Source: Apostichopus japonicus (Eukaryota; Echinodermata; Holothuroidea; Aspidochirotida; Stichopodidae). From it: a stretch of 64,000 nucleotides of DNA. Both the position numbers and the translations under genes were made by a program. Shown piece after piece: positions 1 through 34,290 of the stretch. Under the pieces are notes generated by a model that ran no database searches, was not told where the DNA came from, and worked only from the letters and a program-made list of their open reading frames with translations. Numbering within the stretch: the first letter of the stretch is position 1; every line of letters begins with the position of its first letter. The DNA lies in contig NC_092572.1 in NCBI RefSeq assembly GCF_037975245.1, positions 23,108,489 to 23,172,488 of the forward strand, in the 5' to 3' direction.

Positions 1-851
1 CATCTCTTTCGATATGTTACAAATTAGGATCTGGCTTTTTGTGTCTTGGATGTTGAAGAGTATGAATTGAAGTACATGTGGTGCAAATATTGAGGTACTT
101 TTTATCACTTAAGGCCTTCCAAGAGCAGCATTCGAAAATCATTACTATTAAGTATAAAGGTTTGTTTAAGAGACGAAAACTTCGGGATTTCATAACCAGA
201 AATCTACATGGACATGATACGGAAAACTGTAGTTGCCATGAATGGTCAACATGTCAGCTATCCACTGACGTGTAGCATTAAGCTAGTGAGAACTTCTCTA
301 AGAACTTACATTAGACACCATTTTTATAATTAAGTGTGTGAGTAAAGGGTATTTATATGGAGTATGCTACATTATAGAGAAACTCTTCCATAGCAATCAC
401 TTACTACATTTCAGTTTTGACATATACTTTATAATAACATTAAAACCTATGTGCTCTAAAAACATAAAACATTTATTCAGAAAAGCAAAGACTTGATTGG
501 GTTGTCTCTGCTCTCCTAACAAACAATAGGGTATCCAAGGGAGGACTAAAAAAATATCCTCACTCTCTCTTTCAACTACCCATACTCCAATTCTTCCTCT
601 CAAATGTTAACATACTTTTACAAATCATAGTTTAGAATGAGCTGTAAAGATATTGTTCTTATTCACTGTCATGATATTTTAATATATATAATTGTTTTTC
701 TGTAAATTCAGAACTCTTAAGTTTAATAATGTAATAATTTACTTCCTCCTCACATCTCTAAACCATGGCAACTTTCAAATGCAGTTGCAAAATATGAAGT
801 TATTGAACTACAAATATTACATGTGGCAAGAGTGAACCACAGTATTCTTAC

Positions 852-903
852 CTCACTATCTGGTTGATCTCCTTCAGGAGGAGCCGGTATATTCATTGCA
901 TAT
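852..903 (-). CDS. Exon 8: proline-rich, acidic tail exon
   Basis: 52 nt, entering in phase 2 and leaving in phase 0 (acceptor attctctatag, donor gtaaga). Encodes Q-Y-A-M-N-I-P-A-P-P-E-G-D-Q-P-D-S-E. Two related exons exist on the plus strand (22621-22675 and 24868-24910), sharing the P-x-P-P-E-x-x-D-Q core. The next exon would map left of base 1. Confidence 0.6.
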
Positions 904-3900
904 CTATAGAGAATAAGGAAAACATCGAATTGAGCTACATACAGCTAGATGAATGTGTCAATTACAACTGCATTTCAGTAGAAACTGATCATATTTCTCA
1001 CCTTAAATTGTTAACTTGTCCAAAATCTTTTATCAGTTGCTTTGGTCCTTCATTAATGTAAACTTTGTAAAGCCCAACCAAATTTTCCAACTTTGATGGT
1101 GAGGTATTGAATCGTTTTTTTATTTATTTTTTTTTTATTCTTCATACTCATATACATCATTATTTTTATAATAAATGAAATCTGTTGAATGTTTCATTAC
1201 ACAAACTGCACAAAATGCTGTGGTATGTCGCAGGAAAGTTGGAGAGAAAACCATCATCTACAATAAGGTCTTTGATTTTGAATGCATTAGAGACTGCTTG
1301 CTCTGAGAACAGCTGTAGCAGTGTAAGCATCAAAAACACAAGGGAAAATCAGATGTAAACCCACCCCCCCCCAACCCCCCTCAATAAATGAGCAAGAGTC
1401 ATAACTCTCATTTACCCAGTCAAGTGGTTCTATAGTCATAACTTTTATCAAGTTTAACATTGTATGTGCTGGCAAACATGATGGTAGCAACACAGAGTGG
1501 ACATATTTTAGGAAGAACATATGCTAGATATTACAGTAGATTTTCCACACAGCCCTACCATACAACAGAAAGCCTCCATTGTTTGTGTTTAACCTTTGTT
1601 TGAGACCAAACTTCAAAGAACTGAAGGCTTTCAGCACAAAGGCCTAACTACCTGTACACTTAATATTAATTAGCTCTTAAATAAACTTCAATTCCATTTA
1701 GTCATAATAAAATGAAAACAAACTTTTGAGGAGACTTAAACTGTTGTAATGTATAAGTCAACATAACACCACATAGGCACATAGTTAAAATGATAATGTC
1801 AACATAAAGAACTTGCCATATATTTGCTTGAATTTGTTGTTGTTTTCATCTTTTAAACTTCTCAAAAATCCATTCACAGCAACAACACAAGTGAACTACA
1901 CAATTATTCATTTAGTAGCATCTAATGAAATAGTAACAAACGTTTTTACTACCAAATTTCATCAGAGAACACAATAGATAGTTTTGAAAGGATCTTCAAG
2001 GTGGTCAATATTACACAGCTATTTCTCTTTGATTTAACTTGTAATAAATTGCATTTAAAACCCATTAAAGCCCTGGAACTACAAAACTAGCTCTTTTACA
2101 TACAGTATGTATAAGATGGGTCCCAATGATGAATAAACAGATGTTAATAATAGATCATATAAGAAAACTGCATAAGTTGCTTCTGATGATCTATATTTCT
2201 CAGCATTTTACCTTCTACAAAGAATTCTCAATGACTGTTAAGTCTTAATAGTACAATAGCAACTAACATAAAAGTATGACAAGGACATCAATATAATGTG
2301 TTCTGTTTTACAAGTTCAAAGAAGTATAAGTATTAGCATTATTAATTAAAACAGGAACCTGGCTGCAGAATTGATGGTATGTAATACACACATTATACTA
2401 TGAAGTCATACAACTGCCACATCAAAAGATTTTTTTTTCCATGAAAGACAAAAGTGCTTGTTGTTTTATCATAAAGTACATGATTTTATTAACATATCAC
2501 TATTTGCAGCAGCATGTGCAGTTCAAACTATTCAGTATTCTGTCAGTTTTACCAATGTTAAACATAATAATAAATTTCTGTAATTCTTGTCCATGTAAGC
2601 AGCTCGTCAACATCAAATTTGAGTTTTCAAATAGCATTCTTGACAATGCTGTGATACTGTAATATTACATATACTCATACAATGGAATGACTTTAATTCA
2701 TGGTAAGTAATAATCAATGGTCTTCTATTACCTACAAGTAGAAACATAACTTATAACAGAAAAAATGTTATAAATGTCTGGTTTAAACAAACAAAATTCA
2801 TAAAACTCATTACTGTACAACAAACTGCATTGCTGAGCAGCATAGTGAGACTTTTAGGTAACTAGATCCCTCCAGTTTATATGAATACTTTGATTAATTT
2901 TAAAATTAATCCATTTAATAAGGATTCAAACAGTAGTATATATCAGCAAAGAATGAGGTGTATATATTAGAAAGCCAGGAGGAAGTGGCCATAATGGTAA
3001 TACTCACTGTAAAGATTTGTCAGTGTATCCCTTTCTAGAGCAGAAAAAGAAAGGAATGAAATGAAGTTATCACAGACAGAGACACAAACATCTCAGCAGA
3101 TAAGTGATTTCAGTTACCAATGATGGTGCCAACCCCATCAAATCATTATCAAAAAATAGTTGGAATTGAAAAATATAACACATGCCTCCAAGACTGTTTA
3201 AACCAATCGATGTCAATTAGAAAGTTATTGCATACAAGTTTTCACATACAAACAACTTATCATATTTTCAGTTTTGTGACTCTTTTGGGCCAAGTTTGGA
3301 AGTCAGGCTAGGAATCACAAAATTAACTCAAGAGGCCCCTTTAAAGCAACTTTATGTAATTAGTGGACAATTTACAGTGAATTACACAATATGAGATTCC
3401 ATTGATCAAACTAATGCATCCTCCTTGATAACACCTAAAAGGAAATCTTGATGGGAACGTACAATTCAACCCAATTCTCAACATTTTGTGGTAAGACATT
3501 TTCATACTAGGATTAATCCCATGCAAATACCAGAAACCAAAAAATTGACAAAAAAATGTCCTTTATTCTTGAATCAATAATTATGTAGCCTAAATATGTC
3601 ATTGTGACATGTAATTTAACTATTAAAATAAGTAAAAATCAATCCTCGAAACTTTTGCATAAAAAAAAATGCTTACTAATATTGGACAAAATATGGATAG
3701 AGTGATCCGTAACTAAAAAGACCATTCTAAAATTAGTCTATTGTCAGAGTTTAATACTCCTTTCCAACTTCCATGTTGTAGTCCAAATACTGTTTATATA
3801 ACTTTTGCTGTTGAATAAAATGGCTTATTGTACCTTTCAAGCACCAGTTAAACATTACTTTGTAACTTTTCAGATTTAATGTGAGCACCACTGACCACAT

Positions 3901-6900
3901 ATTTTGTGATTTATTTTTCCAAGGTAAAGCAACCTATCCCAACTCCATCATGTTCTGAATTTCAGGCATATTATGTAATCAATGGCGGCTTACTGTGTAT
4001 TATGGTGAGGTCTTAGGAGACAATTTTCAAAGCGAGCGTATTCAGTCAAACAAGAAGCAGTTCACTTAAAAATCGAATATAAGGAAGTTTTTAGGTTAAA
4101 TAGTATCAATCATCTTTGATTCCTGCCTTTGTTATTTCTTAAATGTGTGCACCACTGACAAAATATGTTAGTAGAGCACTCCAAAACAATAGCCATGCTG
4201 GGTGAAATGTGATCTATACACTGGGTACACTGTGCAGTCTTATGTTTACATGGTTCTATAACTTTGATTTACAAACACTAGTTTCCAAGCATACAATTTA
4301 GTGTTTCAGAATATTATGAAAAAGTGAAATAATTTCATGGATATAACTGGTATTGCCTTTGTATGGAAAGTAAAACTAAAAGCTGAAACCATGCAACTTA
4401 CGATTTCTCAGCCCTCCGTGCTGTGGAAGTAAAAACAACAGAATAATTACACTTCGATGTGACAATTTATGGTGTTTGATTATTCTTGTTTATTCAATGT
4501 GACAATATGGCTCTTGTTCATTCCTGAGTCTATTCCATACCCTGTCACATCAACAGAAGCTTCAGCAAGTTTTAAAGGAAAAGAATTTGAATGTAATAAT
4601 GTTAGCAAAGCCACAAGATAATAAACATCAAGATTATGGTCTGACTTGATAATTCAACTTGATTATTACACTCCCCGTTTGGCTGTAACCACCAGTCTGC
4701 TATTTTGAATTGTTGTATTTTGCTATTTTGAATTGTCTACACAGAAATGTATGTATACACCTATTAGTTTATTGATAATTCCCTCAACTATATTACACAT
4801 CCTGAAATATCCACTGCGACCAACCGTAGACAATGCAAGTGAACAAAGTAAAGATAATAAGTTCAGAAGAAATAGTTAACGATATTCCATTTGATTGAAA
4901 CATTGATGAGCAATGCATTACAGGCCTTTCACTAAGCAAATGTCAGCAACTTAGATATAACTTAACAAATATAAGGACAAACCTCTTAGATAAACAACAA
5001 GAAGTACTATGCCAATAACAAGTACAATGAAAACTGCTGGAATAGCCACGATGAGAGCAACTCTTGTTGTTGAAGGAGGTTGATCAACTGTGTACAAGAA
5101 AATACATAATATTCAATGTCTTACTGATACCGTACAAAATAACATTAATGTAAAGTTAACATGTGATTGATAGCCTTGATTCTCGCTCAATATCATCAAA
5201 ACAATAAATGTAATGCATGAGATCTTTCTAAAGTACAAGCTAACATAAAGCACATAAAGTCAAATTATGAATGAAACTATAAAATGACATACAAATTCAA
5301 GGTACTCAATAACTTCTGTTTCTTTTACATCTTTACACCTTTTACATCATGTCAGCATTCACAAGTTCTGATGTCAGTTTCAAAATAAATTAATTGTAAA
5401 AAATAAGAACACACTGTAGACCCAGAATAGCTGAACTGAAGTCTGAGGCCAACAGGGCAAATGCAGAAAACACTATATGAGTCTTGTCATCTCTATAAAC
5501 AGACTGGGTTGAAAAGCTTAAACCAACTTCTCAGTTGTCTAAATACAACAAGATTGGTTAAAACTTCAAGTTGATCAACCAGTTGTGCTTATGCTTCTGT
5601 TACTGCCAATTATCCAATTTGCTAACAAAGCAAATATACAAACAGATGTACCCCAACAAATCAGTAATCCAACATTCTTGCTTCTCACATATTTGCTCAA
5701 ATTTAATTGATTTTAAACTGTCCACACTAGTGTTCGACCGATTGTATGACAATCGGCCGATTACCGATTACCGATTATTTCAAAATTTTCATGGAACTGG
5801 CCTAATGTAGGATTTAGTGTTATGCATGATTACCAACTTCTAGGCCAATACAATCAAAGATGTAAATGAACGACTTAACTTTTCACAGTAAAGATTAATG
5901 GAGCAAGTGAAGAACACTGTTATACATACATAGGGCGATGTACGGTTATAGCGAGGAGTCGCAATATTGCAATCCCGCCACAACACAGTATTGTACAGAC
6001 TACAGAAGGGGGAAAAATAGTAGCCATTGGCTCCGAAATGAAAAACGAAAAAGTTAGGGACAGCTTTTACAACTGCTATTAGAACCATTATCAGTGTTGA
6101 AACTCCAACGTAACTAGAGTAAAAAGTTTATCGCACGTAAATAAAATATTCGTTATTTCGTTAGCTGATATTGAAATATAATTTGATATGAAAAATAATG
6201 TGCAGGCCTATGACTAGTAAGAGTAAGTTGGCCTGACGTTTCGATCCTAGCAGGATCGAAATGTAACGCCACATTACTTAAAACATATTCTTACACAGGC
6301 TTTTTAGTGGATAAGCAGTTTGCTAACAATTTTATTTTATTATCAAAAATCAAACAATCCCGAACGTTTGCTTCAAGTTTTCAATGATTACAATCTGCGC
6401 GGTAAAATTTCCGATCGAACGAACGTTGTTTCAAACGATCTTACACAGTAAGTCAATGGCGCCTCTCCATTGACTTAACTACATGTGGGAGAATTCGCAC
6501 ACTAAAGTCCCATTGACTTTGTCGCGGCGTGTCACTGGAAATCAGGCTTGCTTTTAGTTGGTTGCGGTAAGGAGTTTGGTTACTGTTAGCAACTTAGCAC
6601 ATATGGTACATTCGGCATTGGAAAAAAGTTGCTTCGGGTTTTTCGCAAAAATATGCGTAAGAATGTTTGCCTAATCACAAAATAATGTAATGCAGTAGAA
6701 CTACTGAGAACTGTCGCCAAACGTGTTTAGGGATTTTTAGTAGTATTTGGAGCCTTGATTTCATCATTTTATCATGTCATTTGTAAAATCTTGGGCGCAT
6801 TTTCAAACTTAACAGTTCTGAAGCTCAACCGTTCTTCAGCCAGACTAGCCTAATGTACGTAGATCTCACAATGAACAAAGTCTAATGTTACTGTCTTCAC

Positions 6901-9900
6901 TTTCCAGTTTTCACCTACGGTGAAATGGCCAAAGTGTAAAAAAGTATATTGATTTGGTGTTTTTATTTAGTATAGACAATTAATCTTTCTTATCAATCGT
7001 TTAACATGATGACAGGTGGTTTTGTTAGATGTAACAATCGAAGCAAAAAAATATATGTCGTCCCCCTAAGCTTATCGCGGGTATACTGTATGTTGTTACG
7101 CGGGTATACTGCATAATGTTAACTGCCATAACTGGATAGTGCATCGAACAGCATTTGTACAAACTCGCGTGAGGGACTTGTGGTACCGTTACACGGTAGA
7201 TTAGCGCACCTTCCCCGGCTATGAATAGCATTGAATCAAAAGATCAAAATTTTTCTCCTGTTGTGGTTGTGGTGTATCAAAAGCGCGGAAAAATACAATC
7301 CTTTATGTGGAACGTAATAATCAGTTCCAAATAATCGGTAGCGCAATGGATTTTGCCGATGCCGATTATTTACCGATTGTCTGATAATCGGCCCGATGCC
7401 GATTGTCTAACCGATTATCGGTCGAACACTAGTCCACACTAGAGCTTTTGTTTATCAAATCACTTTTCGGAAGCAATTGTCTCTTATCACAAATGCACTG
7501 TCCTCGAACAACACATATAAAAAATCATCAATCGGTTCTTTAGCATTTTAAACAAGCTATTGTTATGTTGTTTTATGCTAAAAGTATTGCAAATTTTCCT
7601 TACCATGAAATGGTTCCAGTTTCATTTCTTCTGATGTATCTGTTCCTACATCATTAGATGCACTACATGAAACTATTGCTGGATCGGTTGACGGTAGAAA
7701 CACTTCCATCGCTTCTCGATAGAGGGAGTTATTCACCCATATTTTATAACCACTCACTACTGGATTTGCGTCACAGGCACAAATGACTCGAAACTGATTG
7801 CTTGTTTCATTGGTAACCAGTATGCTACAAGAAGGTGCATCTGTGAACAAATTAAAAAGCCATTAATTACTGAACACATAAAACACAACATTACAGACAT
7901 GATGGTGCTCGTGTAGCAGAATGATAGCACCAGCACTTGAACAACATGCAAGTATGAGTACAAGGATCTAAGGAGTATGAGTACTTGCTATTAATAAATA
8001 CATATTCTAGATTACAAAATACACAGAGTAACAGTAAAAATCAACAAAGGCTAATATGCTAGAATATGAGTGCCAGTATGCAACTCACTAAAAGTCTGCG
8101 GTAAAATCATTTGTTTCTCTCCAATATAGCAATTACATATATATTATAATAATATTAATACAACTAGAAGTACAAGTACAACTGTGATTACAAGGCTATA
8201 AGGAGTATGGGTACTCAATATTATACGGTACTTATTCTAGATTCCAAAATACCCAGAGTCCTAGTACAAATCTACAAGTACAGGTTACTATGCTAGAATA
8301 TGAGTGCCAGTATGTGACTCACTAAAAGTCTCAGGTAAAGTCATTTGTTTCTTTCCAATATAGAATTACTTTTTATAATAATTTAAATACAACTAGAAGT
8401 ACAAGTACAACTGTGAGTACAAGGCTGTAAGTCCCAAGTCCAAAAGTTTCATTGTCACATGAAGCTTTTATTGGTTTATTACTTTCCCAGCCAAGCCTTT
8501 GATCATGATGATATGTGATACTTCTGTTTGCAATTAACTATATTATGACATGAATATAAATCTTAACAAAGTTAACACCTAGTACAAATGTCCATGCACT
8601 GGCAATATACATCATCAGCATGGTCTGGATTGAAGTTCCAATTATTCTTTAATTTCTCTTATAATTACTATTTACTCATGCTAAACAGCTGACAATGATA
8701 CTAGTATGAACTAGCTAGCTTGAAATTATGTCCACTGGTATCACATGTCAGTATATCAAACTGGTCTGTAGTTTTATGTACTTGTTAACTTATTCTCTCA
8801 TCTATTTTATGTAGTTGTAAACTTATTATCACTTTTACACTCGCAACACTCAAAACCAATGTGAACTGTAAGTGTTTGTTCTGTCACTGGTAAAGTAGAG
8901 TTTTATATTTGGTTTGCAGTTGAATCTACTTGATAGTATTCCCATATTTAGTATTAGGTAGTACTTACACATGACATTTATACTAACAGTAGCCTGTTGG
9001 CTTGGTATGACCTCCTGTCCACTGGTAATACATGACAATGTTTCATCATCTTTGTTTGGTATGTAATTTATCATACTGCTGATTATTCTCTCATCTTCTC
9101 TCGACATATCTGTAGTCACCCCTGCAGTCTTCTCCTCTCCATTTACCTGCCAACTCAATGAGACTGATGGTTTCCCTTCTGCAGCGACACACTGGATCTG
9201 AACTTCCTCGGTAAATACAACATCAATGGATTCATTCAGCTTAACCCCATCTTTCTTTAACATCAACTGTGGAGGAACTGAGGGAAAGGAATAAGGAATA
9301 TTAACAACTTCAAAAATGTGCATGAACTAATAATATATGCAAACATAGAAATAACTCTTAGAATTCAAAAATTAACTACTAATACCCATGCAATATCTCA
9401 CACAAATACCATCAGACAACTGCATCTCGATATATGTACATTTATAAATAATATTAAACAGTCAATGATATAAGGAAAGGTTCTGTAATCATTTTGAAAA
9501 CCAGATACAATTCTGGAATGGATATTCCAGAGACAGGCAATGTATCACTCATCTAAAAGAGAACAAAATATTCTACTTTGTTAGTTCAAGCCCTTCATCT
9601 TGACATCTTTCCCATAACTCACAATGTGGTTTTGATGAGGTTAACGCTCCCTTCCTCCAGGAAGTGGATTAAATTTGGCAGTCGGTGATGTCATCACATC
9701 ATATGCTTCATTTTCTTCTTTTAATTTTCATTCATTTTCTTCAATTGCTTCATTTTCCTCCTTAAATCTTTTTTTGAGTAATGTGTTATGTACTGACCAG
9801 TTATAACTACATGTCATAGGATATGTACCGACCAGTTATACAAATAATGTGTTATGTACTGCCCAGTTATACAAGTAATATGTTATGTACTGACCAGTTT

Positions 9901-12900
9901 TACAAATAATGTGTTATGTACTGACCAGTTATACAAGTAATATGTTATGTACTGACCAGTTATACAAGTAATGTGTTATGTATTGACCAGTTTTACAAAT
10001 AATGTGTTATGTACTGACCAGTTATACAAGTAATATGTTATGTACTGACCAGTTATACAAGTAATATGTTATGTACTGACCAGTTATACAAGTAATATGT
10101 TATGTACTGACCAGTTATGCAAGTAATATGTTATGTACTGACCAGTTATACAAGTAATAAGTTATGTACTGACCAGTTATACAAGTAATGTGTTACTGTA
10201 TGTACTGACCAGTTACAACTACATGTCATAGGATATGTACTGACCAGTTAAACAAGTAATATGTTATATACTGACCAGTTATACAAGTAATGTGTTATGT
10301 ACTAACCAGTTATAAATTATTCTATGTACTGACCAGTTATACAAGTAATGTTTTATGTACTGACCAGTTATAGAAGTAATATGTTATGTACTGACAAGTT
10401 ATACAAGCAATGTGTTATGTACTGACCAGTTATACAATGTACTGACCAGTTATAAAAGTTAAGTGTTACAGTATGTACTGACCAGTTATAAATACAAGTA
10501 ATATTATGTTATGTTCTGACTAGTTACATCTGGACTCTATTGATCTCTTCATGCTAACATTGAGCCAGAGGTAGCTTACATACCAGAATTGACATTACGC
10601 CAACAACAGTGGTTAATTATGTATGTATGTATGTATGTATTTAGATCCTCCCGCAAGCAGGAACACGCGAAGCCGCCTCATTGGCTTATCAAAGCCGCAA
10701 GCTGACCGAAGTCAGTCTCTTACATTCATATTTTACAACCATGATTATAAATTGTTAGTTGTCAACAACTCTGTAACTGGACGACATACATTAATCTGGG
10801 AGTGACTCGAACCGGGAACCTTATGATTGAAAGGCAATTAACCATGACATAGGCCTTGTTCTGAGGAACCTATACAATGGATCCTGGCAGGACTAGAAGT
10901 GATAAGATGAAATCGGTCTTACTTTCTACTATGAGGTTTCCAATGACTATGTCATTGCCTTGTTCTTGGCAAGAGTATTGGCCTTCAGTTTCTTCATCTG
11001 CTGATATTACCTCCAGAGTCATTGTAACGGTATTGTCGGGATTGGTTATCGTCGTAACAGTGTATTTCTGCTTATCGTTAGGCTGATCTCTTTGCACAAT
11101 AATACTGCCACCACTTGACTGTCCTCTTCTTAGAAATGACCACGTGGTGAAGTCTACTTCTGCCACAATGCATTCAAAACAGGCAGAAGTATTGATCTCG
11201 ACCACTTCACGTACAGTCTCTGTTGAATAAATTTAATAAATTGTAATAAGAACAAATTACAACCCATTTTGTTTATGGCAGGACTTATTAGAAGCCGTCT
11301 TGGATATTTTGGTTGTAATATGTTGCTGTGTAGAGTTTGCCTTATAAACTGCATCACCTTCTAATAAAATCTCCAGACATTCCCTAAATAAATAGAGGGC
11401 GCTGTGATATTGGTTCTGAGAAACTTGAAAAGCTGCAGTCTCTGAAATCACGTGAGAACTCCTTGGAGGAATCTCTGACGGAAAATTCATAATAATTTGT
11501 TTCTATTTTTGTGTGTTATATACTGTAGATAATCCATTGCTTCTTGTTTTCTTTAATTCTTGTCTAAACCAGGTTTTGAGGTCAGTTTCTTCAACTGATA
11601 TAGTAAACCAAATTACATAATGGATCTATGTGTGTAGACATGAATATGGAAATTATAACATCAAATGTACCCTGCCAACATATTATGGCATATTTCTATT
11701 TCACTGAGACCTTTGAAGGAAATTCAATGAGATTAACATGAACAATATATAATAATTAAATGGAATTTATATATTTTAAGTTCTTTCACATGTTTAAATA
11801 CATACAAAGAAAAAAACACTACGTCATACTCATATCTCAACTAAATTTCTTCAACTTTTCAATTGCGTCACACACACACACTAAAATGGGTCAATCCATG
11901 CCAAATCAACAGTAGCCTCCACGTCCAATTAGGGCCAGAAGTGAGATTTCTTAAGGTTGAGGGCGCTGTTTGTAAAACGTACCACCCCCTTGACTTTATT
12001 TTGGCACTTTTCCCGTACAACTACCACTGGACAAGGATCCTATGCAAATTAAAACTCAAATATGCCTTTGCTTGTGAATATAAAGCACACTCAAAGTAGG
12101 GCCAGAAAAGGCCCCTATCTCATTTTCTGCCAAATTACTTGTTACAAAACATTGACACCGTCAATTTTGCGCAAAATTAGCTAAATTCCAAGACTGGTCA
12201 TATGTCTTCCACAATATCTGCAATATCAGACATAAAATACTTTACATTTATTCAAAAGATGCCTCCAAACTTGACACAAATTTAGGGCTCTTAAAATGCA
12301 ATCTGGGTTTTGCTTGCTAGGCGATGTCGTATCCTAGCAACCAAAAAGTTTTCAAAAGTTTTTTTGCCCAATTTCATCCTTTGAGACATGTGGCAAGACA
12401 CCATATCAATTTCAGGCGATTCTCGCGAGGGTCGACGTGGAATTGACCAAAAAATCTGTTGATTTCGCATGGATTGACCCAAATGTAACTTTCACAAAGT
12501 ACCAGATGTTTGGCTCACTTTGCTACTTCCATGGCTGGATATAAATATGCTTAAAAGTATGATTTTGGAAGCTTGCATTTCATTTTCCACTTTGAGAGAA
12601 AACAAATTGGTTAACACTCTTATGCTGACACCTTACCCTGACATTACTTGAATTTTCTCTTTTATTACTAATTTCTAAGTTAAGTTTTAGAAACCATTTC
12701 TGTTTTTGCTTTATGTGCTGAAAATCTATGAATTTGTAGTACTCTATAGCTGTGATTGAATCTCCAGGTAGAAGGAAATGAGTATTAAATGTACATGAAA
12801 ACTGTGGTTAAATTTCACATTACAGACAGTATCTCGTAATACCACCAGAGCATCACTTACCTACGGAATACGACTCTGTTACCAATAGCAACAGCACCAA

Positions 12901-12927: not shown

Positions 12928-14344
12928 CTGTAAAACAATATAAAAGCATTTATGAACACAATCAATATTACTGTACCTTACTTTGAGATACCTTGTCAAC
13001 ACCTCTTAAAAAACGAACGATAAACATTCCTGAAAAATGCCCTCAAATTTTTCTGCAGACATGGGCATCTTTTCACTATCCTACTCCCCATGCCCACTCA
13101 TCTTCCAAACGCCCAAACCCCCACCCACCCCCAACTCCCCACTCTCCCTCCTCTTCAATTAGAATTTGGTGTCCTTTTGAGATCAGATGAGACCAGGTAG
13201 GGTAGCCTATGCAAGCAATAATTTATGAAGAGAAATGTGAATGAGGCACTATCAAATAGGCAAACTGCTATACAAATAAAGAGACAGCTAAGTTTTTGCA
13301 TACATGTACAGAACAATGCCATTTTCAGTCAATTGTAGAACAAGAAACAGAATCCATCTACTTCAAACCTGCTATGTACATCAATTGAGAATTAATTCCT
13401 GCTCTGGTCATCTACAATCATTTCAATTTTATTTTCAAACAATACTTCAAGCCTTGAAGGTGCAAAAGTTCACCTGCAGTCAGTCCAATTTTGACCAACC
13501 ATGAAACAAGAAACACATGACTTTGAACACGGAACAACAGCATCCTACCCATGCAAGCGTGTCCACCGTCAACCTGTCTGTGGACGTTTTGATATTAAAG
13601 CTTTCACCATACTGCTGGTAACATTAAATATGAATGGCATAGCATTGAACATGTTGTACAGTACATATTAAAGTGTGTACCTTTTTTCCTTAGTTTAGGT
13701 GTTCCAGCAGTGAGTGTTCATCTACACATGCCTGTTACAGGATCAAGACTTGCGAGGTTGATGTTATAATCAGGGTTTCACTGAGTTTCAATGGTTAAAT
13801 TTACTGTAATTCTCTGAATCAATTCATCTGTTGAAGAAGAAAGGGGGGAAAACAGTTACTAAGAGACAAACTGAATAAACTTGAGCTACTTTGACTTTCT
13901 CTCTTTCAACATTTATAATTTATTTACCTAATCATTGAAGCAGGTACCAAAAGTGAACGAGGTTTCATGTTTGATGCAAGCTATGCTGCCTGTCTCTTGT
14001 TTGTAAGTCAAATGCAAAACATGATATTTTCAATCGCTATTGGTGCCCCTTTCACTTGCTCAGGTTACATTCATCCCTTACCATGGCAACAACTGCTACA
14101 GTTATTGTATGTCCCTTCAAGTGTCAACTACCACCTCAAAACATTCCAGAAATATTTGTGCCGAATAAAAGCTAAGCAGCAGAGCTAAGCTTCACAGAAA
14201 TGTTCACTGTTTACAAACAATTAAAATGTTTTCTTTAAGGGTTGTTTACCTTCCAAATTTTGGAAAACTGCCTTAGTGCCCTTTTGAAAGCTGAAAAAGG
14301 AAATTACAAAGCAATTTAAAATCCCCACTCCCCAGTCCGCACCC

Positions 14345-14395
14345 CCTTGATTATACCGGCATGAGACTTTCTTTGTGCGCGAGTCTTCACACCCT
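14345..14395. mobile_element. Fragment: one end of a TTAA-type MITE, inverted
   Basis: Reverse complement of the left end of the elements at 14563 and 34774 (AGGGTGTGAAGACTCGCG...CTCATGCC), abutting TTAA at 14396-14399. It lies only 160 bp from the neighbouring copy in opposite orientation, forming an imperfect inverted repeat. The open frame on the minus strand at 14221-14682 runs through both and is not considered a gene. Confidence 0.55.
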
Positions 14396-14562
14396 TTAAG
14401 GATTTGATCAATGATATCTATCAAGGTTATATCCAAATCACTCAACTGTATGTATTTTTTATAGTTCCTCAGAAATGTACATAATGATCTCAAAATATTT
14501 ATTGTTCTGTTGCAATGAAGCAGAATTTGACCACAAAATGGCTGCCGTGCAAAGTTCTTTAA

Positions 14563-14920
14563 AGGTTGTGGAGACTCACACACAAAGAAACTTCTCATGC
14601 CGATATTCTGACCTAGTTTCAAATGAGGTGTAACAGAACTTACAGAAGTGTAAGACACCACCATCGATCCCAGAAAATACACACACGGCTTGCTAGCTTC
14701 TGTAATTAGACACTATTGTAGAGTCAATACATACAGGCACAGCTACGGTCAATACCCACAGCACAGTGCACATAGCAGCGAGGTCTAGATAAAGATAACA
14801 AGGTATCAAGTTTCATTACTGTCTGCATTTTGTAGCGACAAGAAGAAAACTTCACTTGCAAGCAATGGAAATTTTACTTTTCAGAGGGCGGCACGCAGTT
14901 TGGGGCGAGTCTTCGATGCC
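14563..14920. mobile_element. TTAA-target MITE, copy 1 (358 bp)
   Basis: Flanked by TTAA (14559-14562 and 14921-14924). Termini AGGTTGTGGAGACTC and CGAGTCTTCGATGCC are imperfect inverted repeats. Nearly collinear with 34774-35120. TTAA duplications occur in piggyBac and Kolobok families; which applies is not clear. Confidence 0.68.
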
Positions 14921-15065
14921 TTAAATACGTACCTGAAGTGACGAATACTGTACGACGATAAGCTAACTGTTAGCATACATCCATTGACTCTGCAGGATGC
15001 GCTTTGCTACTGTATATGCTTTGAGACTCTTAATTATCTCATATCCCAGAGAGCAGTGGTATCAT

Positions 15066-15591
15066 CAGACCTGTCAACCTATTTGACCCTAAAATAGGGA
15101 GAATAACATTTTTCATGGCCAAAAAGTAGGGAGAACAAAGGAAAAATAGGGGGGTTCGTAATTTTCAACTGAAATGATATAAATAATTCTAAATAACAAT
15201 AGTCAACTTATGCAATACAGTGAGAGAATCATCCAATCAGTGTTTCTTGTTGTAGTTTACAGCAGCTCCCTTCGCTTTCTACAGGGTTTCTTTAGTAGGC
15301 TTCCATTTGCAACAGGGAAGAGTGGACTCTGGGTACTGTGACTTCATGGCTAGTACTAGATAGAGTCCCATCAAGCTTGAGACTTGACGGACTGTCTGTC
15401 TTGTTCTTGCGAACTACACTGAATAGCCTTTCCTGTTCAGCATAGGACTAATTGTTGGCTATAATTTCAGAAATGTCGCAAGTGATGAAACATTAAAAAA
15501 AACGGGAGAATAGAATATGAAACCGGGAGGCCGGGAGATTCAGGTAAAAACCGGGAGTCTCCCTGTAAGACCGGGAGAGTTGATAGGTCTG
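15066..15591. mobile_element. hAT-like MITE, 526 bp
   Basis: Termini CAGACCTGTCAAC and GTTGATAGGTCTG are inverted repeats; flanks share TATCAT (15060-15065 and 15592-15597). Sub-terminal GGGAG/CGGGAG motifs repeat on both sides. The target duplication is shorter than the usual 8 bp, so the hAT label is tentative. Confidence 0.65.
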
Positions 15592-16329
15592 TATCATGTT
15601 GAGATAACTTTGGTTATTTTTAGGGAGTAAGTTTTCCAAATGTCAAACATGTATACGTAAAACCTGGGCGGGAGGGGGTTGACCACAAGTTGATCGGCAC
15701 ATATCTGAAATGGATTAAAACCCATGAAGTATGTAACTCTGCTTTGTTGAAAAAAGTTATGGTTGCCTGCTGTACAGTTGCTTGAAGGTGCGTCAATTAC
15801 GAAGGTGTGTCAATTATGGAGCCACTTTACTGTACTTATGGTAGGTGCATGAAGGCTACATATTGTAGGAATCAAGTCACATACTGTACGGTGCTTATCT
15901 CGAACTTTTTACCCGAAATGATATCGTAAGCACTACGCTAAGTCTGTGCTAATTTATTATGGGCCTGGCATTAGCTGGCCATATGCATTACACTCGTATG
16001 AACAATCTGTGTAAGTGTATTTAAACGCGGTAAGTCCTATGTTAGGAACAAGACAGGCTAGCCTAACCTTGAATTGACAAAGAATTACGTGCAAATTGTT
16101 CGGCTTTAGCCTAACGTTAGTGGTGTGTTGGCGGAGTAACGGATGACCAGAAACCAGTCTATTGATTTTGCGTGAAGAGATCCCTGTGGATCATAAGATC
16201 ATGTGGATCATAAAGTTTTGGCCATCACAGATTTGAAGAAAAAAAATCCCCCAAGATGTACCAATTTTACAAGCCTAAGACAGACTTACATTACAGTTAC
16301 AGGATGATGACTGCGCGGTAGAAAAGGGA

Positions 16330-16460
16330 AATCCTCGGGTGAGTCACAGCGTTACCAGCGAATCGGGCTGAAGTTGGCGGCCAATAACAGCGACCAATAG
16401 CAGCGAACGTTAAGCATTACCAGCGACCATTACCAGCGAACAATAAGAGCGAACACTAAG
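16330..16460. repeat. Degenerate short repeats of an ACCAGCGA-type motif
   Basis: At least seven spaced occurrences of (a/t)accagcga, aatagcagcgaa or aataagagcgaac within about 120 bp, in the region between the two inverted arms. Function unknown; could be transposon sub-terminal repeats or a protein-binding cluster. Confidence 0.5.
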
Positions 16461-17482
16461 GGGAAAATGATACTACGGAGAAGTTTCAGGGCAATTCCAA
16501 TGTTACAAGGGGAAAAGTAAAGTTTTAAAAACTAAACTAATTGACACACTTATTTAACAGAGTCATGGGTGTGTTATCAGACAATAAAAGTTTTCAAATT
16601 GCGCAAGTAATAGCTGGCAACCCTCTCTATCACCCCATCAAAACCACCTTGAGAAAAGATGTCATCAGAGAGGGAGTTAATAACGCCCAAACTCGACGCG
16701 AAGTCTCCTCTACCGTTTATATGGGGGTTTTCAACACGATTTTTGGCTAACAAATCAAATCTGTAACTCAGTATCATTGGGGTCCCCAAAGTAGCTGACG
16801 TCACGAGCTATCACCCCATACCAACATACCTAGGTCAATTAGTTTCTTGTACACCACCAACCAGAAGCTTCACATTCCCAGGAAACAGCAAAAATAAATC
16901 TTTCAATAGGTTAATATGAGTAGTTATAGTTTCATATTGGAGGGACATCTGATGGCAGTTAGGCATACCAAGAAGTCCAAATGTTTAAAGGACAAACCTT
17001 TGTTTTGTCTTTTGTAACTTTGAGTTCAGGGTAGGGCTGGGCAAAGGTTAAGTATCCTTTTTGGGTAGTTCATGTTAATTTTCATTAATAGAACAAAAAT
17101 CAAAACTACAAGAAACAACCATAGTTTGGACTCAAATGTTATTGAACTAAAATGATTGTTTTTCTATTGTTAAGCATATTGAGAACAAAATGTGATTGCT
17201 ATATTGGGGAAAAACAAATGATTTTACCGCAGACTTTTAGTGAGTCGCATACTGGCACTCATATTCTAGTCAGCATTGTAGATTTGTACTAGTACTCTGG
17301 GTATGTTGGAATGTAGAATATGTATTTATTAATAGCAAGTACTTATACTCCTTAGAGCCTTGCACTCATACTTGCATGTTATTCAAGTGCTGGTGTTGTC
17401 ATTCTTCTACATGAGCACCAACATGTCTGTAATGTTGTGTTTTATGTGTACATTAATTAATGGCTTTGTAATTTGTTTACAG

Positions 17483-17719
17483 ATGCACCTTCTTGTAGCA
17501 TACTGGTTACCAATGAAACAAGCAACCAGTTTCGAGTCATTTGTGCCTGTGACGCAAATCCAGTAGTGAGTGGTTATAAAATATTGGTGAATAACTCCCT
17601 CTATCGAGAAACAAAGGAAGTGTTACTACCGTCAACTGATCCAGCAATAGTTTCATGTAGTGCATCTAATGATGTAGGAACAGATACATCAGAAGAAATG
17701 AAACTGGACCCATTTCATG
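17483..17719 (+). CDS. Ig domain exon of the truncated paralog
   Basis: 237 nt, phase 1 both ends, same borders as 7604-7840. Core Cys residues kept (V-I-C-A-C-D-A-N-P; I-V-S-C-S-A-S-N). The C-strand Trp of the left copy is Leu here (G-Y-K-I-L). Other replacements are few (for example A-M-E-V-F to T-K-E-V-L, and E to D near the end). Confidence 0.8.
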
Positions 17720-20700
17720 GTAAGGAATAATTTGAAATCCTCTTAGCAAAAAACAACATACCAATAGCTTGTATAAAATGATATAGCATCAATTGATGAT
17801 TTGAAATATGTGTTGTTCAAGGAAAGTGAATTTGTGATGAGAGAAAATTGCTTCTGAAACATGATTTGATAACAAAAATGCTTAAGTAAGGACAGTTAAA
17901 AATTAATTAAATTTGAGCAAATATGTGAGAAGCAAGAATGTTTGATTACTGATTTATTGTGGTACATCTGTTTGTTTATTTGCTTTGTTAGCAAATTGGA
18001 TAACTTGCAGTAACAGAAGCATAAGCACAACTGGTTGATCAACTTGGAAGTTTTAGTAGGTCTAGTTGTATTTAGAAATATTTAGACAACTGAAAAGTTG
18101 GTTTAAGCTTTTCAACCCAGTCTGTTTATAGAGATGACAAGACTCATAAAGGATTAGTGTTTTCTGCATTTGCCCTGTTGGCCTCAGACTTCAGTTCAGA
18201 TATTCTGGTTTTACAGTGTGTCTTTATTCTTTGCTAGTAATGACCTAAATTAAAATCATTAAGGCTGTCGTCATGTATTTTGAATCTGACATCAGAAACT
18301 GGTGAATGTTGGCAGATGTAAAAGAAACATAGGTTTATTGAGTACCTTGAATTTTGATGTCATTTAGTTTCATTCACATATTTCAAAATTTGCTTTATGT
18401 TAGCTTTTTCTTTAGAAAGATCTCATTCATTACATTTGTTGTTTGAATAGCTCAGTGATATTGACAGAGAATCAAGGGTGTCAATAGCATGTTAACTTTA
18501 CATTAATAAAATATTGAACTGTACCAGTAACACATTTAATATTTATGTATTTTCTTGTACACAGTTGATCAACTTCCTTCAACAACAAGAGTTGCTCTCA
18601 TCGTGGCTATTCCAGCAGCTTTTATTGTACTTGTTCTTTGCATAGGCCTTATATTCACTTATCGCAGAGGTTTGTCCTTATATTTGTTAAGTTATATCTA
18701 AGTTGCAGACATTTGCTTAGTGAAAGGCCCACAATGCATTGTACATCAATGTTTCAACCAAATGGAATATTGTTAGCTATTTCTTCTGAACTTAATATTG
18801 ATACTTTTTCCACTTTCATGTCTACAGCTGGTCACAGTGGATATTTCAAGATATGTAATAAAGTTGAGGAACTTATCAAATGGGTTAATAAGTTGATAGG
18901 TACATTTCTGTATAGAAAGGTTAACTTGTTGAGTTAAGTGAGTTTAATAACAATCAAAAATGCAGAAAGTTGGTTATGGAATGTACTGATCAAGATGAAT
19001 TACGAACTCAGACCGTAATCTTGATGTTGATTTGCTAACGTTATTGTACTCAAGTTCTTGTCCTTCAAAACTTGCTGAAGCTTCTGTTGATGTGACAGGG
19101 TATGGAATAGACTCAGGAATTAACAAGAGCCATATTGTCACATTGTAATAGACTCAAGAATAAACAAGAACCATATTGTCACATTAGAAATGTAATTATT
19201 CTGTTGTTTTGATTTCCACAGCACAGAGGGCTGAGCAATCGTAAGTTGCATGGTTTCAGCTTTTAGTTTTACTTTCCAATATCAATACCAATATCAGTTA
19301 TATCCATTGAAATTATATCACTTTTTCATAATATTCTTAAACACTAAATTGTATGCTTTGAAACTAGTGTTTGTAAAGCGAAGTTATAGAACCATGTAAA
19401 TATAAGACTGCACACTCAGGGTACAGATCCCAATAAACCCAACATTGATATTGTTTTGGAAAGCTAATATAACAAATGTGGTCAGTGGTGCTCACATTAA
19501 GTCTAAAAAGTCACAAAGTAATGTTTAACTGGTGCCTGATAGGTACAATAAGTCATTTTATTCATCAGCAAAAGTTTATACAAACAGCCTTTTTACTACA
19601 ACATGGAAGTCGGAAAGGAGTAATAAACTATTACATTTGTCTCGTGTTAGAATGGCGTTCTCAGTAAAGTATCACTGTACCCATTTTTTTAAGCAGTTTT
19701 TAAGTGATTATAAGCTTGACGAAGATTGACTTTTACTTATTTTAATAGCCAAATCACATATCACAACATACATATTGAGGCTACATAAGTTTTTATTCCA
19801 GAGTAACAGACAAGTTTGTTTCAGTTTCTGATATTTGCATGGAAGTAATCCTAGTATGAAAAATGTCTTCCAACAAGATATTGAGAATTGGGTCGAATTC
19901 AGCGTTATGTTCTAATAAAGATTTCCTTTTAGGTGTTACAAGGAGGATGCGTTAGTTTGATCAATAGGAAGAATAGGAAGAAAATTGTATGCAATAACTT
20001 TCTAATTCACACGATTGGTTTGAAAAAATTCTGTTATTTTGTCTCAATTGCAACCTTATTTTGATTAATATTTGATAGGTTTGGTGCCATGATTGGTTAT
20101 CAAACTCACTAAAGCTTCTAAGATATTTGTGTTTCTGTCCCTGATAACTTTTATTTTATAACTTTTATAACTTTGATAACTTTTATTCCTTTCTTTTTCA
20201 GCATCATGGAGTTTTTGTGGATCGATCACATCTCAAATTTTGTGTGAGTATTACCATTATGGCCACTTTCTCCTGGCTTTCTCAGATAAACCTCATTCTT
20301 TGTTGATATTTACTACTGTAAGAATTCTTATTAACTGAATATGTTCTAAGATCAATCAAACTATTCATATAAACTGGAGGGATCTAGTAACCTAACTTAT
20401 GTTGTGAAATTAAGTGGATATTAAAAATGAAAACTTTAACAGACATTGATAATTCTAATTGTTCCGATTTTCATCGTAGAAGTATCCATTTGTCACATTA
20501 ATGGGTCGCTTTTAAGCAGTTCTTGTTAATTTACACCTGTAGGCCCTTGTAGTCTTTGTATTTGTCAGTGTGATTTTTAGAGATTGTATGAACTTAAAGA
20601 CATGCTTGAAACAAACCTATACTGTTTACCTAATACCAACGTTCTCAGTAGTTTTAATTGTATTAAGCAGTGTTCTAGCAATGGTATAATGTACAGCCAA

Positions 20701-23700
20701 AGAAACCCAACGTAAAATGCTACACTAGCTATTTTTGCAATCTAAAGTAAGTTATAGTGGTTGTGCATTCATACTGTGTAGCATTTCTCATCACTTGTTT
20801 CCTTTTTGTTCTCTTTTTTAATTTTCATGTTTTAGTCCTTTTGCTTCTTTTTAATATTTGCATAATGTTTGTAACTCAATTGGAAAGATGGCTCTTTTGT
20901 TTGAATTTTTATTAAATTGATATATTCCAAAGATTAATCAATGTACTTATGTACACCGGAGGGATCTAGTTACCTAACAGCTTACTGTTCTGCTCAGCAA
21001 TGAAGTTTTTTGTACAGTAATGAAGTTTATGAAGTTTGTTTTTGTTTGAACCAGACCTTTGTAACATTGTTTCTGTGTTAAGGGATTTTTACTTTTACAA
21101 TGAAAGGTCTTGTAGGTAATAGAAGAACTTTGCTTATTACCTACCAAGGATTACAGTAATTTCATTGTATGAGTATATGTAATATTAATTTATCAAAGCA
21201 TTGTCAAGAATGCTTTGTGAAAACTCAGATATGATTTTGAGGAGCTGTTTACATGAACAATATTACCGAAAATAATTAAAATGTTTAAATTGGTAGAACT
21301 GGCAATACTGAATAGTCAGAACTGCACATTCTGTCTTTAATAGTGATATGATAATGACATAAAGAACACATACCAAATGGAATAAAAAATTCAAATAAAA
21401 ATGGTGTATGCCTAACTGTCATTGTCATTGCATTTATTACATTTATAGCAACTTACATAGTGTCCATTTACCTGTTTTCCAGCTTCATGATTGGGACCCT
21501 TGTTACACATACTGTATTTACGAGAGCGAGTTTATAGTTTCAAAGCTGCAGTGGTTTTGCATGCATTTTGTAACAACAAGTTAAATAAAAAAGAACTGGC
21601 CATGTACTAGCAACCACCTTGAAAATATTTCTTGTGTTCACTTGGTTAATGAAATTGTATTGGTTTTGGTAGTAAAAACTTTGTTACATTTTCATTAGGT
21701 GCTAATATATGAATGGTTTTCTAGTTAACTTGAGTTGTTGCTGTGAATGGATTTTTAAGAAGTTATAAAGGTGACAACAACCACAATTCAAACAAAGATA
21801 TGGCAAGTTCTTTACTTTGACATCATAGCTATGTGCCTATGTATAAATGTTAACTGATACATTAAAACGAATTGATTCTCCTTAAAATTGTGTTTTCATT
21901 TAATCATATTTGTATTATGACTAAATGGAATTGAGTTGAATTCATAGCTAATTAATAGTAAGTGTACAGGAAGTTAGGCCTTTGTGCTAAAGTCTTCACT
22001 TCTTTGGTCTCAAACAAAGGTTTAACACAAACAATGGAGGCTTTCTGCTGTAGGGTTGAGCTGTGTGGAAATGTACTGTCATATCTACAGTATGTTCTTC
22101 CTAAAATATGTGCACTCTGTATGGCTACCAACATGTTTGCTAGCACATACAATGTTAGAGTTTGTAAATGTTGTGACTACAGTAACACTTGGCTGGGGAA
22201 ATGAGTTATGACTCTTGCTCATTTGTGGGTGGGGGGGGGGGGGGGTGAGGGAGGTTTTCTTTACAACTTTCCTGCAACATATCGCAACATTTAGTGCAGT
22301 TTTTATAATGAAACATTTAACAAATTCCCTTTTTTATAAAAAATATTGATATCTATATATATATATATGAGTATGAAGAATAAAGAATATATGAAAGAAT
22401 TTTTCAAAATACCTCACCATCAAAGATGGAAAACTTGGTTGGACCTTACATTTAGGAATGGCCAAACAACTGATAAAAGATTTGGACAAGATAAGAAGTT
22501 TAGGTGACAGTAGTATCTTTTAGCAGAAATATGATCAGTTTCTACTGGGATGCAGTTGTAATTGACACATTCATCTATGTTTCACATAGCTCAATGGATT
22601 GTTTTCCTTTTTCTCTTTAGAGGTGCAAGGATGAATAGACCACCTTCTCCTGAAGATGGTCAACCAAATAGACCGGTAAGAATACTGTGGTTGATTCTTG
22701 CCGCATGTAATATTTGTAGTTCAATGACTTCATGTTTTTTAACTGCATTTGAAAGTTGCAATGGTTCAGAGATGTGTGGACGAAGTACATTATTACATCA
22801 TTAAAATTAAGAGTCTTGAATTTACCAGAAAAAACAATGATATATGTTAATATATTATGACAGTAAATAAGAACAATTTGTTTACAGCTCATTCTAAACT
22901 ATAATTTGTAACAATATGTTTGAAAGGAGAGACAGAATGATTGGAGTATTTAATTTACAGGGAAAACAATTAATATTATAACAGTTAATACAAACAATAT
23001 GTGTGCATCTCATTCTAAAAGTTAATTTGTAAAAGTACATAAACATTTGAAAGGAATGACAGAAGGAGTGGTATATGGGTAGTTGAAAGGGAGAAGAGGG
23101 TCTTTTCTCAGTCATCCCTTGGATAACTTAATGTTTGTTAGTAGAGCAGAGGCAACACAATCCAGTGTTTGCTTTTCTAAAGAAATGTTTTATTTGTTTA
23201 GAGCACATAGGTTTTAATGTTATTAAAAAGTATATGTCAAAACTGAAATGTAGTAAGTGGTTGCCATGGAAGATTTTCTCTGTAATGTAACATACACCAC
23301 ATAAATGCCCATGTACTCACAAACTAAATTATAAAAGTAATTTGGTGTCTACTGTAAGTTCTTAAAGAAGTTCTCACTAGCTATCACTACACATCACTGG
23401 ATAGCTGACATGTTAGCCATTCATGGCACCTTTGGTTTCCCGTATCGTTAACATGTAGATTTATCGCTATGAAAAACCTGAAGCTTCTGTCACTTTAAAA
23501 AACCTCTTTACTCTGTAGTTGCAAAGTTTTGAATGCTTGAACAATATACAGTAGCCTGGACATGTTATATTTTTACTTACCCATTGTGTTCTAGAGGTGG
23601 TGAGGTATTGCCAATGCATTTTGCTTACCTCTGGACATTGACAAAACAACAAAGTCAGGGACTTTTGCAATCGTTAGTCCTAATTATGATGGTATATACA

Positions 23701-28576: not shown

Positions 28577-28757
28577 ATGACTCTACGATATAACCCTTTA
28601 TGAATGGATTGCAACAATCAGATCATTGCACTCCTGCTCATAAGAGAGAGTCATTTGTTATACATCACCATGGAGACAGAATATATCATGCTTACCTAGG
28701 ATGAGCGGATCATTTAAATTTGAAACGAAAATGTGATAAAACTGTTTTGGTGTACAT

Positions 28758-29103
28758 CAGTGGCGTAGGAAGGTACTTTTGAGTGGGGGGGCTGAAGACT
28801 TATGGCCGGCCTGGGGGAGGGGTCTAAGGGGAGGGGGTGTCCCCCGCGCCTTTGGAATTTTTTGCATATCCAGGTAGCCTCAGATGCAATTTGGTGCAAT
28901 ATAGCACACTTCAACACCGATTCCATTTTGTAAACTTAATTTTGTATTTTCACCTGGCCTTAGATGCAATTTGGTTCTCCAAATGAGATTTTTTTCTCAT
29001 TTGGAAATGAAAAAGGGGTTTTCTGACTTGCAAAGCGGGGGGGCGGAATGATACTTCCGCCCCTCCACATTTTTCACCAGCCCCCCCGGTTCCTACGCCC
29101 TTG
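28758..29103. mobile_element. hAT MITE, 346 bp
   Basis: Termini CAGTGGCGTAGGAA and TTCCTACGCCCTTG (inverted, two mismatches), 8-bp target duplication GTGTACAT on both sides (28750-28757, 29104-29111). Interior is rich in G and C runs (cccccgcgcc, cagcccccccgg). No coding capacity. It lies 180 bp after the candidate stop of the plus-strand gene, perhaps in its 3' UTR. Confidence 0.85.
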
Positions 29104-29111
29104 GTGTACAT

Positions 29112-30730: not shown

Positions 30731-30734
30731 GTCA

Positions 30735-33504: not shown

Positions 33505-34290
33505 AAAAATTCATCGCAACCTCAATGCATTCTGGTTAAACCAAATTATTTACAAGTCTTCTAGACTTTGACTTCTGGTTATTTCGGAGACCTTTGACCT
33601 CCATAAAAATACCAATATATGTCATGAACTTAGAAGGCTGATCTATACGTTATGTACAACTTTCAAGCTTCGCACTCAAGCTTTACCGTTGGATGTATTG
33701 TATCTATAAGGTTTCTAGAGTTTGACTTGTGTTATGCTCTGTCGATTTAACTTCAGTTGGGAAAAAAATATGATCAACAGCATGGATCATGTTCTCACTC
33801 TAAGTATCAAGTTCATCAATGCTTTAATGTTAGAATTATTGAGTTAACAAAGTTGTCAGATATTGACCACTGATGACATCAATTGACCTTTGACCTGTAC
33901 AAACAGCAATCAGGTTCTTGTAATTTGTACAATGGAACAACCTGCTAATTATGCAATCTATTCAGGGTTAATTGAAGATAAACTGTTGAAAGAGTTTCAG
34001 ACTTTAACCTCCGGACTTGAAACCACTTGTAATTGCGACTCACTGGCACTCACATAGATACATAGACACACATAACTCTACCATTGCCTTGGGTAAGGAA
34101 TAAAAAACGAGGTAAAACCAGCCCAGAAATATTAATGAAATGTTTTGTATTATGTCCAATCTTTAATCGCCTTTTCTGCCAGTCATGCATCTGTCAACTG
34201 AAATAGTTATTAATACTTATGTATTGTATCATTGTGTTAATAATATATCAATCTATTGAGTTGTTATTTGTTTGGCATTTCTGTAAATCA
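33505..34290. repeat. Direct repeat copy 2
   Basis: Uninterrupted counterpart of 30735-32140 lacking the LINE insertion. Contains the same tgaccttt-type motifs (gagacctttgacctcc at about 33584, attgacctttgacctg at about 33884). Confidence 0.7.

Follow-up and report, generated by a model that had tools for sequence, protein, structure and literature searches.

In a 64,000-nucleotide (nt) stretch of the Apostichopus japonicus genome (hereafter, the window; contig NC_092572.1, designated C12, C12:23108489-23172488, with window position p equal to C12 position 23108488+p), the 3′ half of a minus-strand receptor gene with three immunoglobulin (Ig) domains recurs as a mirror image on the plus strand. 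The arrangement, a partial gene duplicate in inverted orientation, is of a known kind, and its orphan half is unexpectedly intact. We propose, with a probability of roughly 0.47, that this right copy is what remains of a sister receptor, namely its 3′ half, orphaned by the loss of the 5′ half.

In our proposal, a three-Ig type I receptor gene would have undergone an old inverted segmental duplication (non-exon divergence of about 0.155 per site) of its 3′ part. The copied segment would start shortly 5′ of Ig3, take in the transmembrane (TM) exon, the tail and several kilobases of downstream DNA, and lie head to head with the original. The right copy may then have been translated for a time, supplying the membrane and tail portion of a sister receptor, before losing its 5′ half, either by deletion or by replacement with the repeat-bearing 4.3 kb that now separates the left leader from the right break. 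On the sequenced chromosome it would now be an orphaned 3′ half with no ordinary path to the cell surface. The locus thus offers a snapshot of a receptor-gene cluster making partial, mirror-image copies, and poses a measurable question: why has a headless half kept its reading frames?

Extent and identity of the two arms

A BLASTN comparison of the window with itself reveals a chain of inverted matches linking 127-8138 with 17190-25631, including 7446-8138 versus 17877-17190 at 90.8% identity and 4142-5723 versus 19498-17890 at 82.0%. With 40 kb of left flank added (coordinate 0 is the last base before the window, and negative coordinates lie in the flank), the left arm extends to about -12516 and the right arm to about 33491-33987, giving arm lengths of about 20.7 kb and about 16.8 kb, respectively, and a spacer of 9.05 kb. 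The long, collinear inverted homology spans coding and non-coding DNA alike, as expected of an inverted segmental duplication. We infer that the left arm is the original and the right arm the copy. A sequence-only reading of the window had predicted the inverted match and proposed a dot plot to measure it; our self-BLASTN, used in its place, confirms the match. The homology break, which that reading placed at about 8137/17193 upstream of Ig3, lies at 8138/17190, just 5′ of Ig3. Its outer limit at 23650 was set too close, as the arms go on beyond the left end of the window and to 33.5-34 kb on the right, so that less than half of either arm lay within the part it described.

17190..33987, plus strand: right arm (BLASTN with left flank; collinear to about 33491)
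1..8138, minus strand: left arm, inner part (inverted BLASTN matches; about 12.5 kb more beyond the window's left end)
8139..17189, no strand: spacer between the arms (spanned by no inverted homology; contains dispersed repeats and the only 5′ half found, with leader, Ig1 and Ig2)

Divergence was taken from 10 collinear blocks chosen among 37 inverted matches of at least 150 bp. Cross-matches between tail units were set aside, as were matches that lie outside the arms and some of the smaller collinear matches. Block alignments were used for the arms; one single alignment misplaces the first kilobases owing to an insertion in the left arm. Over 10,759 aligned non-exon columns the arms are 86.0% identical, corresponding to a Jukes-Cantor distance of 0.155 with 0.014 gaps per site. 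Individual blocks range from 82.0% to 88.7%, the highest value being found in the block that adjoins the spacer.

Inverted repeats are hard to assemble, and an assembly artefact is therefore worth considering. We regard it as very improbable: the arms differ by 14% with insertions and deletions, carry unequal numbers of tail units, and only one of them contains a hAT-like insertion. High-fidelity (HiFi) reads should easily separate two such arms because of these same differences. Collapsed haplotypes, considered separately, were rejected on the 14% divergence and the insertion private to one arm. The probable source assembly was built from HiFi reads with a contig N50 of 17.2 Mb, according to the available part of its description (PMC10344927).

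The left receptor gene and its headless mirror image

The left gene, on the minus strand, is modelled as 13 exons in one open frame from start to stop. These encode a leader, Ig1, Ig2, Ig3, the TM segment, exon 6, an optional exon 7 and three pairs of tail exons (8/9), with the stop in the last; from Ig1 onward the entry phases are 1-1-1-1-1-2-2-0-2-0-2-0. With a signal peptide, Ig domains, a single TM segment and a cytoplasmic tail in frame, its product belongs among the predicted Ig superfamily (IgSF) type I membrane receptors.

12861..12927, minus strand: exon 1, signal peptide MRNFCEVSLLVLLLLVTESYSV (phase-1 donor gtaagtga; in-frame splice; leader scan)
10923..11219, minus strand: exon 2, Ig1 (left gene model)
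8969..9277, minus strand: exon 3, Ig2 (Pfam CD80-like C2-set_2 above cut-off)
7604..7840, minus strand: exon 4, Ig3-like domain (seven-strand predicted model)
4983..5087, minus strand: exon 5, transmembrane (left gene model)
4402..4420, minus strand: exon 6, 19 nt (left gene model)
3008..3034, minus strand: exon 7, 27 nt, phase 2-2 (left frame open with or without it)
852..903, minus strand: exon 8.1, first tail unit (left gene model)
-1321 to -5998 (left flank), minus strand: exons 9.1, 8.2, 9.2, 8.3 and 9.3 (left gene model)

The scan that located the leader combines three features, namely a start codon, a hydrophobic core and a phase-1 donor, and uses approximate scoring weights. Under strict settings the left leader is the sole candidate on either strand of 11222-17480 (one in 6.26 kb of minus strand, none on the plus strand), and eight control stretches of the same length yield one weak candidate. 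Relaxed settings add one further, weaker minus-strand candidate and still none on the plus strand.

The left protein matches the Pfam families C2-set_2 (E 4e-7) and ig (E 1.2e-4) above cut-off, with the best stretches in Ig2; these are the only families above cut-off in this protein, and none has its best stretch in Ig1 or Ig3. For Ig3, a structure model predicted from two sequences has seven strands (mean predicted local distance difference test score (pLDDT) of 79 for the best of five models, 73 to 41 for the others). Foldseek returns a mixture of FN3, PKD, enzyme and Ig chains for this model, with a best E of 1.8e-3 and none below 0.001. ‘Ig3’ is therefore a label given by position and relatives, as neither Pfam nor Foldseek gives a clear Ig match. 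A sequence search of the PDB gives 453 matches at E up to 1, and the 60 of these 453 that were shown are generic Ig-containing chains such as titin, contactin, antibody and T-cell receptor.

Across the genome (671,581,487 bases searched, 35 contigs), Ig1 and Ig2 have one close match each, the next best being 27% and 41% identical, respectively, and Ig3 has two close copies in the same 671.6 Mb. Relatives of all three domains lie on the same contig, many of them clustered, and relatives of Ig2 lie on other contigs as well. A search with the TM-plus-tail protein finds nothing beyond the locus except two matches at E of about 0.3. One clustered three-Ig receptor gene on this contig (L002, C12:22996000-23005999) resembles the left gene in its Ig1-Ig2-Ig3-TM order, as judged by reading frames, with Ig2 37% and Ig3 33% identical. 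It differs from the left gene in its tail, by eye, and from the present locus in lacking an inverted half copy: a self-comparison of its 10 kb gives inverted matches of at most 151 bp.

The right copy, on the plus strand, comprises Ig3, the TM exon, exon 6, a putative exon 7 and two tail pairs, with the stop in the last exon.

17483..17719, plus strand: Ig3 exon (8 of 237 positions differ from the left)
18565..18669, plus strand: transmembrane exon (right copy model)
19222..19240, plus strand: exon 6 (right copy model)
20202..20243, plus strand: putative exon 7, 42 nt (sequence unrelated to left exon 7; same phase)
22621..22675, plus strand: tail exon 8.1 (right copy model)
24092..24117, plus strand: tail exon 9.1 (right copy model)
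24868..24910, plus strand: tail exon 8.2 (right copy model)
26195..26230, plus strand: tail exon 9.2, with in-frame stop (right copy model)

The frames are open throughout, as the sequence-only reading had stated, and AG and GT are present at all modelled exon borders, so that the copy is not disabled in the manner of an unprocessed pseudogene. That reading had also given exons 4-6 and 8 identical lengths and phases in the two copies. This holds for all phases and for the lengths of Ig3 (237 nt left, 237 nt right), TM (105/105) and exon 6 (19/19); exon 8, at 52/55 nt, differs by one codon. The two exon 7 sequences (20202-20243 and 3008-3034) are unrelated, yet both are open, bordered by AG and GT and in phase 2-2. 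Within the TM exon, the second half (18618-18669 versus 5034-4983) carries a cluster of differences flanked by near-identical stretches, which might reflect either conversion of a small tract by another gene or rapid change in the membrane segment.

What the right copy lacks is everything 5′ of the break: it is without the corresponding left exons, and homology does not continue past that point, the hallmarks of a partial gene duplicate. The earlier claim that it is without a leader and the two distal Ig domains agrees with our leader scans and genome searches, which found none. Strict scanning of the plus strand from -12516 to 17480, the 30 kb upstream of right Ig3, gives no leader candidate, and a plus-strand leader for the right copy was rejected after both strict and relaxed scans came back empty. 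Neither a second close Ig1 nor a second close Ig2 occurs among the matches scored in the genome searches. A hidden pair was likewise rejected, as BLASTN matches were 11-24 bp long with E of at least 0.06 and tblastx gave none at E 1. On the plus strand of 12951-17189, similarity to the left 5′ half does not exceed chance. Read directly from the genome, the frame 5′ of right Ig3 meets a stop within 30 bases without a methionine, and the first in-frame methionine lies near the end of Ig3. The right-copy protein matches no Pfam family above cut-off, and the leader scan, which can miss leaders, finds for it no signal peptide of the kind expected in an IgSF type I receptor.

These partial, inverted relations recall the partial gene duplicates described by Katju (PMC3449122), in the portion of that source available: a truncated paralogue, homology ending inside the gene and a missing part without a homologue nearby. 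In the present case, unlike in those duplicates, the 3′ half is kept, inverted, with its frames intact. The definition given there calls for an outgroup genome to establish ancestry, whereas ancestry here is drawn from one genome.

Probable past constraint on the right copy and rival explanations

That the right copy was once part of a working gene is suggested by how little it has decayed. We simulated decay at the observed substitution and gap rates (20,000 runs), leaving out exon 7, in which the arms are unrelated, and scoring the last exon for its acceptor only and not for frame. The scored right exons and splice sites stay intact in 0.245% of runs when half of the divergence is assigned to the right branch, and in none of the 20,000 when all of it is. 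As an empirical control, we took pseudo-exons, AG-to-GT stretches that are open in non-exon DNA of the left arm, counted each once per open frame and scored them for intactness in the right arm.

200-270 nt: sense 5/58, antisense 0/20
95-120 nt: sense 57/294, antisense 8/190
49-60 nt: sense 87/393, antisense 47/268
38-48 nt: sense 114/464, antisense 94/324
23-30 nt: sense 186/563, antisense 106/397
17-22 nt: sense 203/492, antisense 123/365

Multiplied over the six internal exons, the pooled fractions give 5.8e-5 for the full path between the arms and, as its square root, 0.0076 for one branch; sense stretches alone give 1.2e-4 and 0.011. Because free drift on its own branch is put at about 0.002-0.011 (at most 0.05 under the mildest assumption), constraint probably acted on the right copy during part of its history. 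Ig3 differs at 8 of 237 sites, and the sequence flanking it at 51 of 450 (P 0.0003). Taken together, the exons with a left counterpart differ at 56 of 517 sites, against 1509 of 10,759 non-exon columns (P 0.043).

A further Ig3 fragment supplies an outgroup. Lying beyond the left arm's end at L003:5207-5563 (window -14793 to -14437), in the orientation of the left gene, it consists of a degraded 3′ half of Ig3 plus intron with an in-frame stop, is 73.6% identical to the right copy and is an older partial duplicate. It gives polarity for about 285 columns only, in which the right branch has 4 changes in 116 exon columns versus 18 in 169 intron columns (P 0.025), and the left branch 2 exon and 7 intron changes (P 0.32), with 7 intron columns left unassigned.

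Several observations weigh against a constrained past. The simulated intact fraction rises to 1.9% when the local divergence next to Ig3 is used and to 5.0% at a quarter of the global divergence. The exons were picked with both arms in view, which makes the probabilities optimistic, and the pseudo-exons overlap and so are not independent. Without Ig3, the exons differ at 48 of 280 sites, no lower than non-exon DNA (P 0.14); the four tail exons diverge faster than it does (31/156, P 0.048); and exon 7 is not conserved between the arms. The outgroup result depends on the alignment, four of six giving P 0.025 and the two global ones 4/116-117 versus 14/169 (P 0.14). Nonsynonymous and synonymous distances (dN, dS) are 0.028 and 0.058 for Ig3, 0.146 and 0.192 for TM, and 0.061 versus 0.103 for the two combined, ratios of about 0.5-0.8 from few sites; strong protein-level purifying selection on Ig3 was rejected, as constraint of this kind is weak at most on so few sites. 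The strict leader scan also found nothing in the 3.3 kb upstream of Ig1 in the paralogue L002, so the scan may miss leaders, or that leader lies farther off. Finally, no trace of a former 5′ half of the right copy is left between 12951 and 17189 on the plus strand, and its existence can therefore be argued from constraint alone.

A rival history that we consider somewhat unlikely is that the duplicated segment lacked the 5′ half from the start, that the right copy has at no time been expressed, and that its frames have stayed open by luck. Partial duplicates commonly end as neutral, unexpressed copies; here the homology ends sharply at a single break and leaves no 5′ remnant, and divergence in the TM and tail exons equals or exceeds that in non-exon DNA. 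The right intron may also have evolved faster than the left, with 18 versus 7 derived changes (P 0.043; 14 versus 7 by global alignment, P 0.19). Luck of this order is what the one-branch probabilities (0.0025 by simulation, 0.0076-0.011 by the pseudo-exon control) and the contrast between Ig3 and its flanks argue against. A functional product made today from a promoter in the right arm or spacer is a distinctly unlikely alternative. It could start at the methionine near the end of Ig3 and read MKLDPFHVDQLPSTTR-TM-tail, or use a first exon that our scan cannot recognise. The frame is intact from that methionine to the stop, a TM segment followed by basic residues would fit insertion with the N terminus outside and the C terminus inside, and a hidden leader gains some plausibility from the scan's failure to find any for L002. 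Against the hidden leader stand the empty scans, and against the tail-only start the fact that Ig3, mostly untranslated from it, is the least diverged exon stretch compared. The closed frame 5′ of Ig3 and the 30 kb without a leader candidate lend no support to the birth of a short membrane protein that the sequence-only reading had raised, and at best a TM-plus-tail product would start at the methionine near the end of Ig3; its other suggestion, a decoy, is unlikely without a leader.

An alternative that would account for both 3′ halves being kept is that the front end is invertible: a single promoter-leader-Ig1-Ig2 cassette, lying between inverted Ig3-TM-tail halves, would be flipped by recombination between the arms so as to point at one tail (three units) or the other (two). 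We think this a long shot, and grant no better odds to its corollary that flipping, whether in immune cells or in some animals' germline, lets the receptor alternate between two membrane and signalling tails. The geometry is suitable: the spacer edges coincide with the arm breaks, the leader, Ig1 and Ig2 lie inside with no 3′ exons, both Ig3 exons accept the same phase with both 3′ halves open, and after inversion the distance from Ig2 to right Ig3 would be about that now separating Ig2 from left Ig3. Long identical runs between the arms are also in excess. Only one orientation is seen in the one assembly, however, and arms of 86% identity with a longest exact run of 71 bp are not the long, near-identical repeats that nonallelic homologous recombination (NAHR) calls for. 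That run is shorter than the mammalian figure for NAHR (up to 300 bp), although longer than that for E. coli (about 50 bp), both as quoted in the available portion of PMC3449122. In the human inversion HsInv0209 the likely exchange region, 782 bp at 99.9% identity, is far more alike than these arms, as given in the accessible text of PMC3961182. Human inversions that swap first exons, CTRB1/CTRB2 (HsInv0030; PMC6748972) and AQP12A/AQP12B (HsInv0241; PMC3961182), resemble this locus, judging from excerpts of those papers, in that paralogous gene parts flank a segment whose inversion exchanges 5′ ends. They differ from it in that both genes have a first exon and the inversion has been observed, whereas this locus has a single 5′ half, available to no more than one arm. 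A somatic switch is further disfavoured by a review of immune diversification, the available part of which holds that echinoderms do not owe their recognition diversity to somatic genome rearrangement (PMC13428168). In a partial view of the literature, no title concerned this locus or such a switch in sea cucumbers. Should the spacer flip, it would be an invertebrate case of receptor tail switching by DNA inversion.

Possible sequence exchange, insertions and repeats

Beyond the orphaned half itself, the arms carry further marks of their history. Identical runs of at least 40 columns number 19, compared with a mean of 3.9 and a maximum of 10 in 1000 shuffles, and the longest run ignoring gaps is 99 columns against a shuffled mean of 53. 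Gene conversion between the arms, which the sequence-only reading had proposed, fits this excess, and patchy constraint fits it equally well.

5728..7431, no strand: hAT-like insertion, 1704 bp, in the left Ig3-TM intron (15-bp perfect terminal inverted repeats TAGTGTTCGACCGAT)
7949..8431, no strand: tandem duplication of about 230 bp at the inner end of the left arm (BLASTN; one copy seen in the right arm)

The insertion is flanked by an 8-bp target duplication at 5720-5727 and 7432-7439. An 8-bp duplication with short terminal inverted repeats marks hAT transposons, and the insertion is called hAT-like on that likeness. Its site is uninterrupted in the right arm and in the third Ig3 fragment, so the insertion postdates the duplication.

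Both arms carry tandem 8/9 exon pairs, three on the left and two on the right, and amplification of the tail unit therefore probably began before the duplication. The units (22551-27097 on the right; -1321 to -5998 in the left flank) each have two exons in phase 2-0-2 that encode short segments rich in Pro, Glu and Asp, an arrangement by which tail length can change with the frame unbroken.

Dispersed repeats occupy about 11925-12486 and 16361-16834 of the spacer. The latter recurs on other contigs in at least 13 copies, which are 420-475 bp long and 94-96% identical; several are followed by repeated copies of its 3′ part. It ends about 360 bp before the right break. Another spacer element, 14354-14921, has a short inverted end and is 80% identical to 34769-35121, a copy that lies just outside the right arm and points the same way; it has a further match at C16:68205-68559. 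In the left gene, the intron between Ig1 and Ig2 contains a tandem array of about 21 copies of a 31-bp repeat at 9777-10526.

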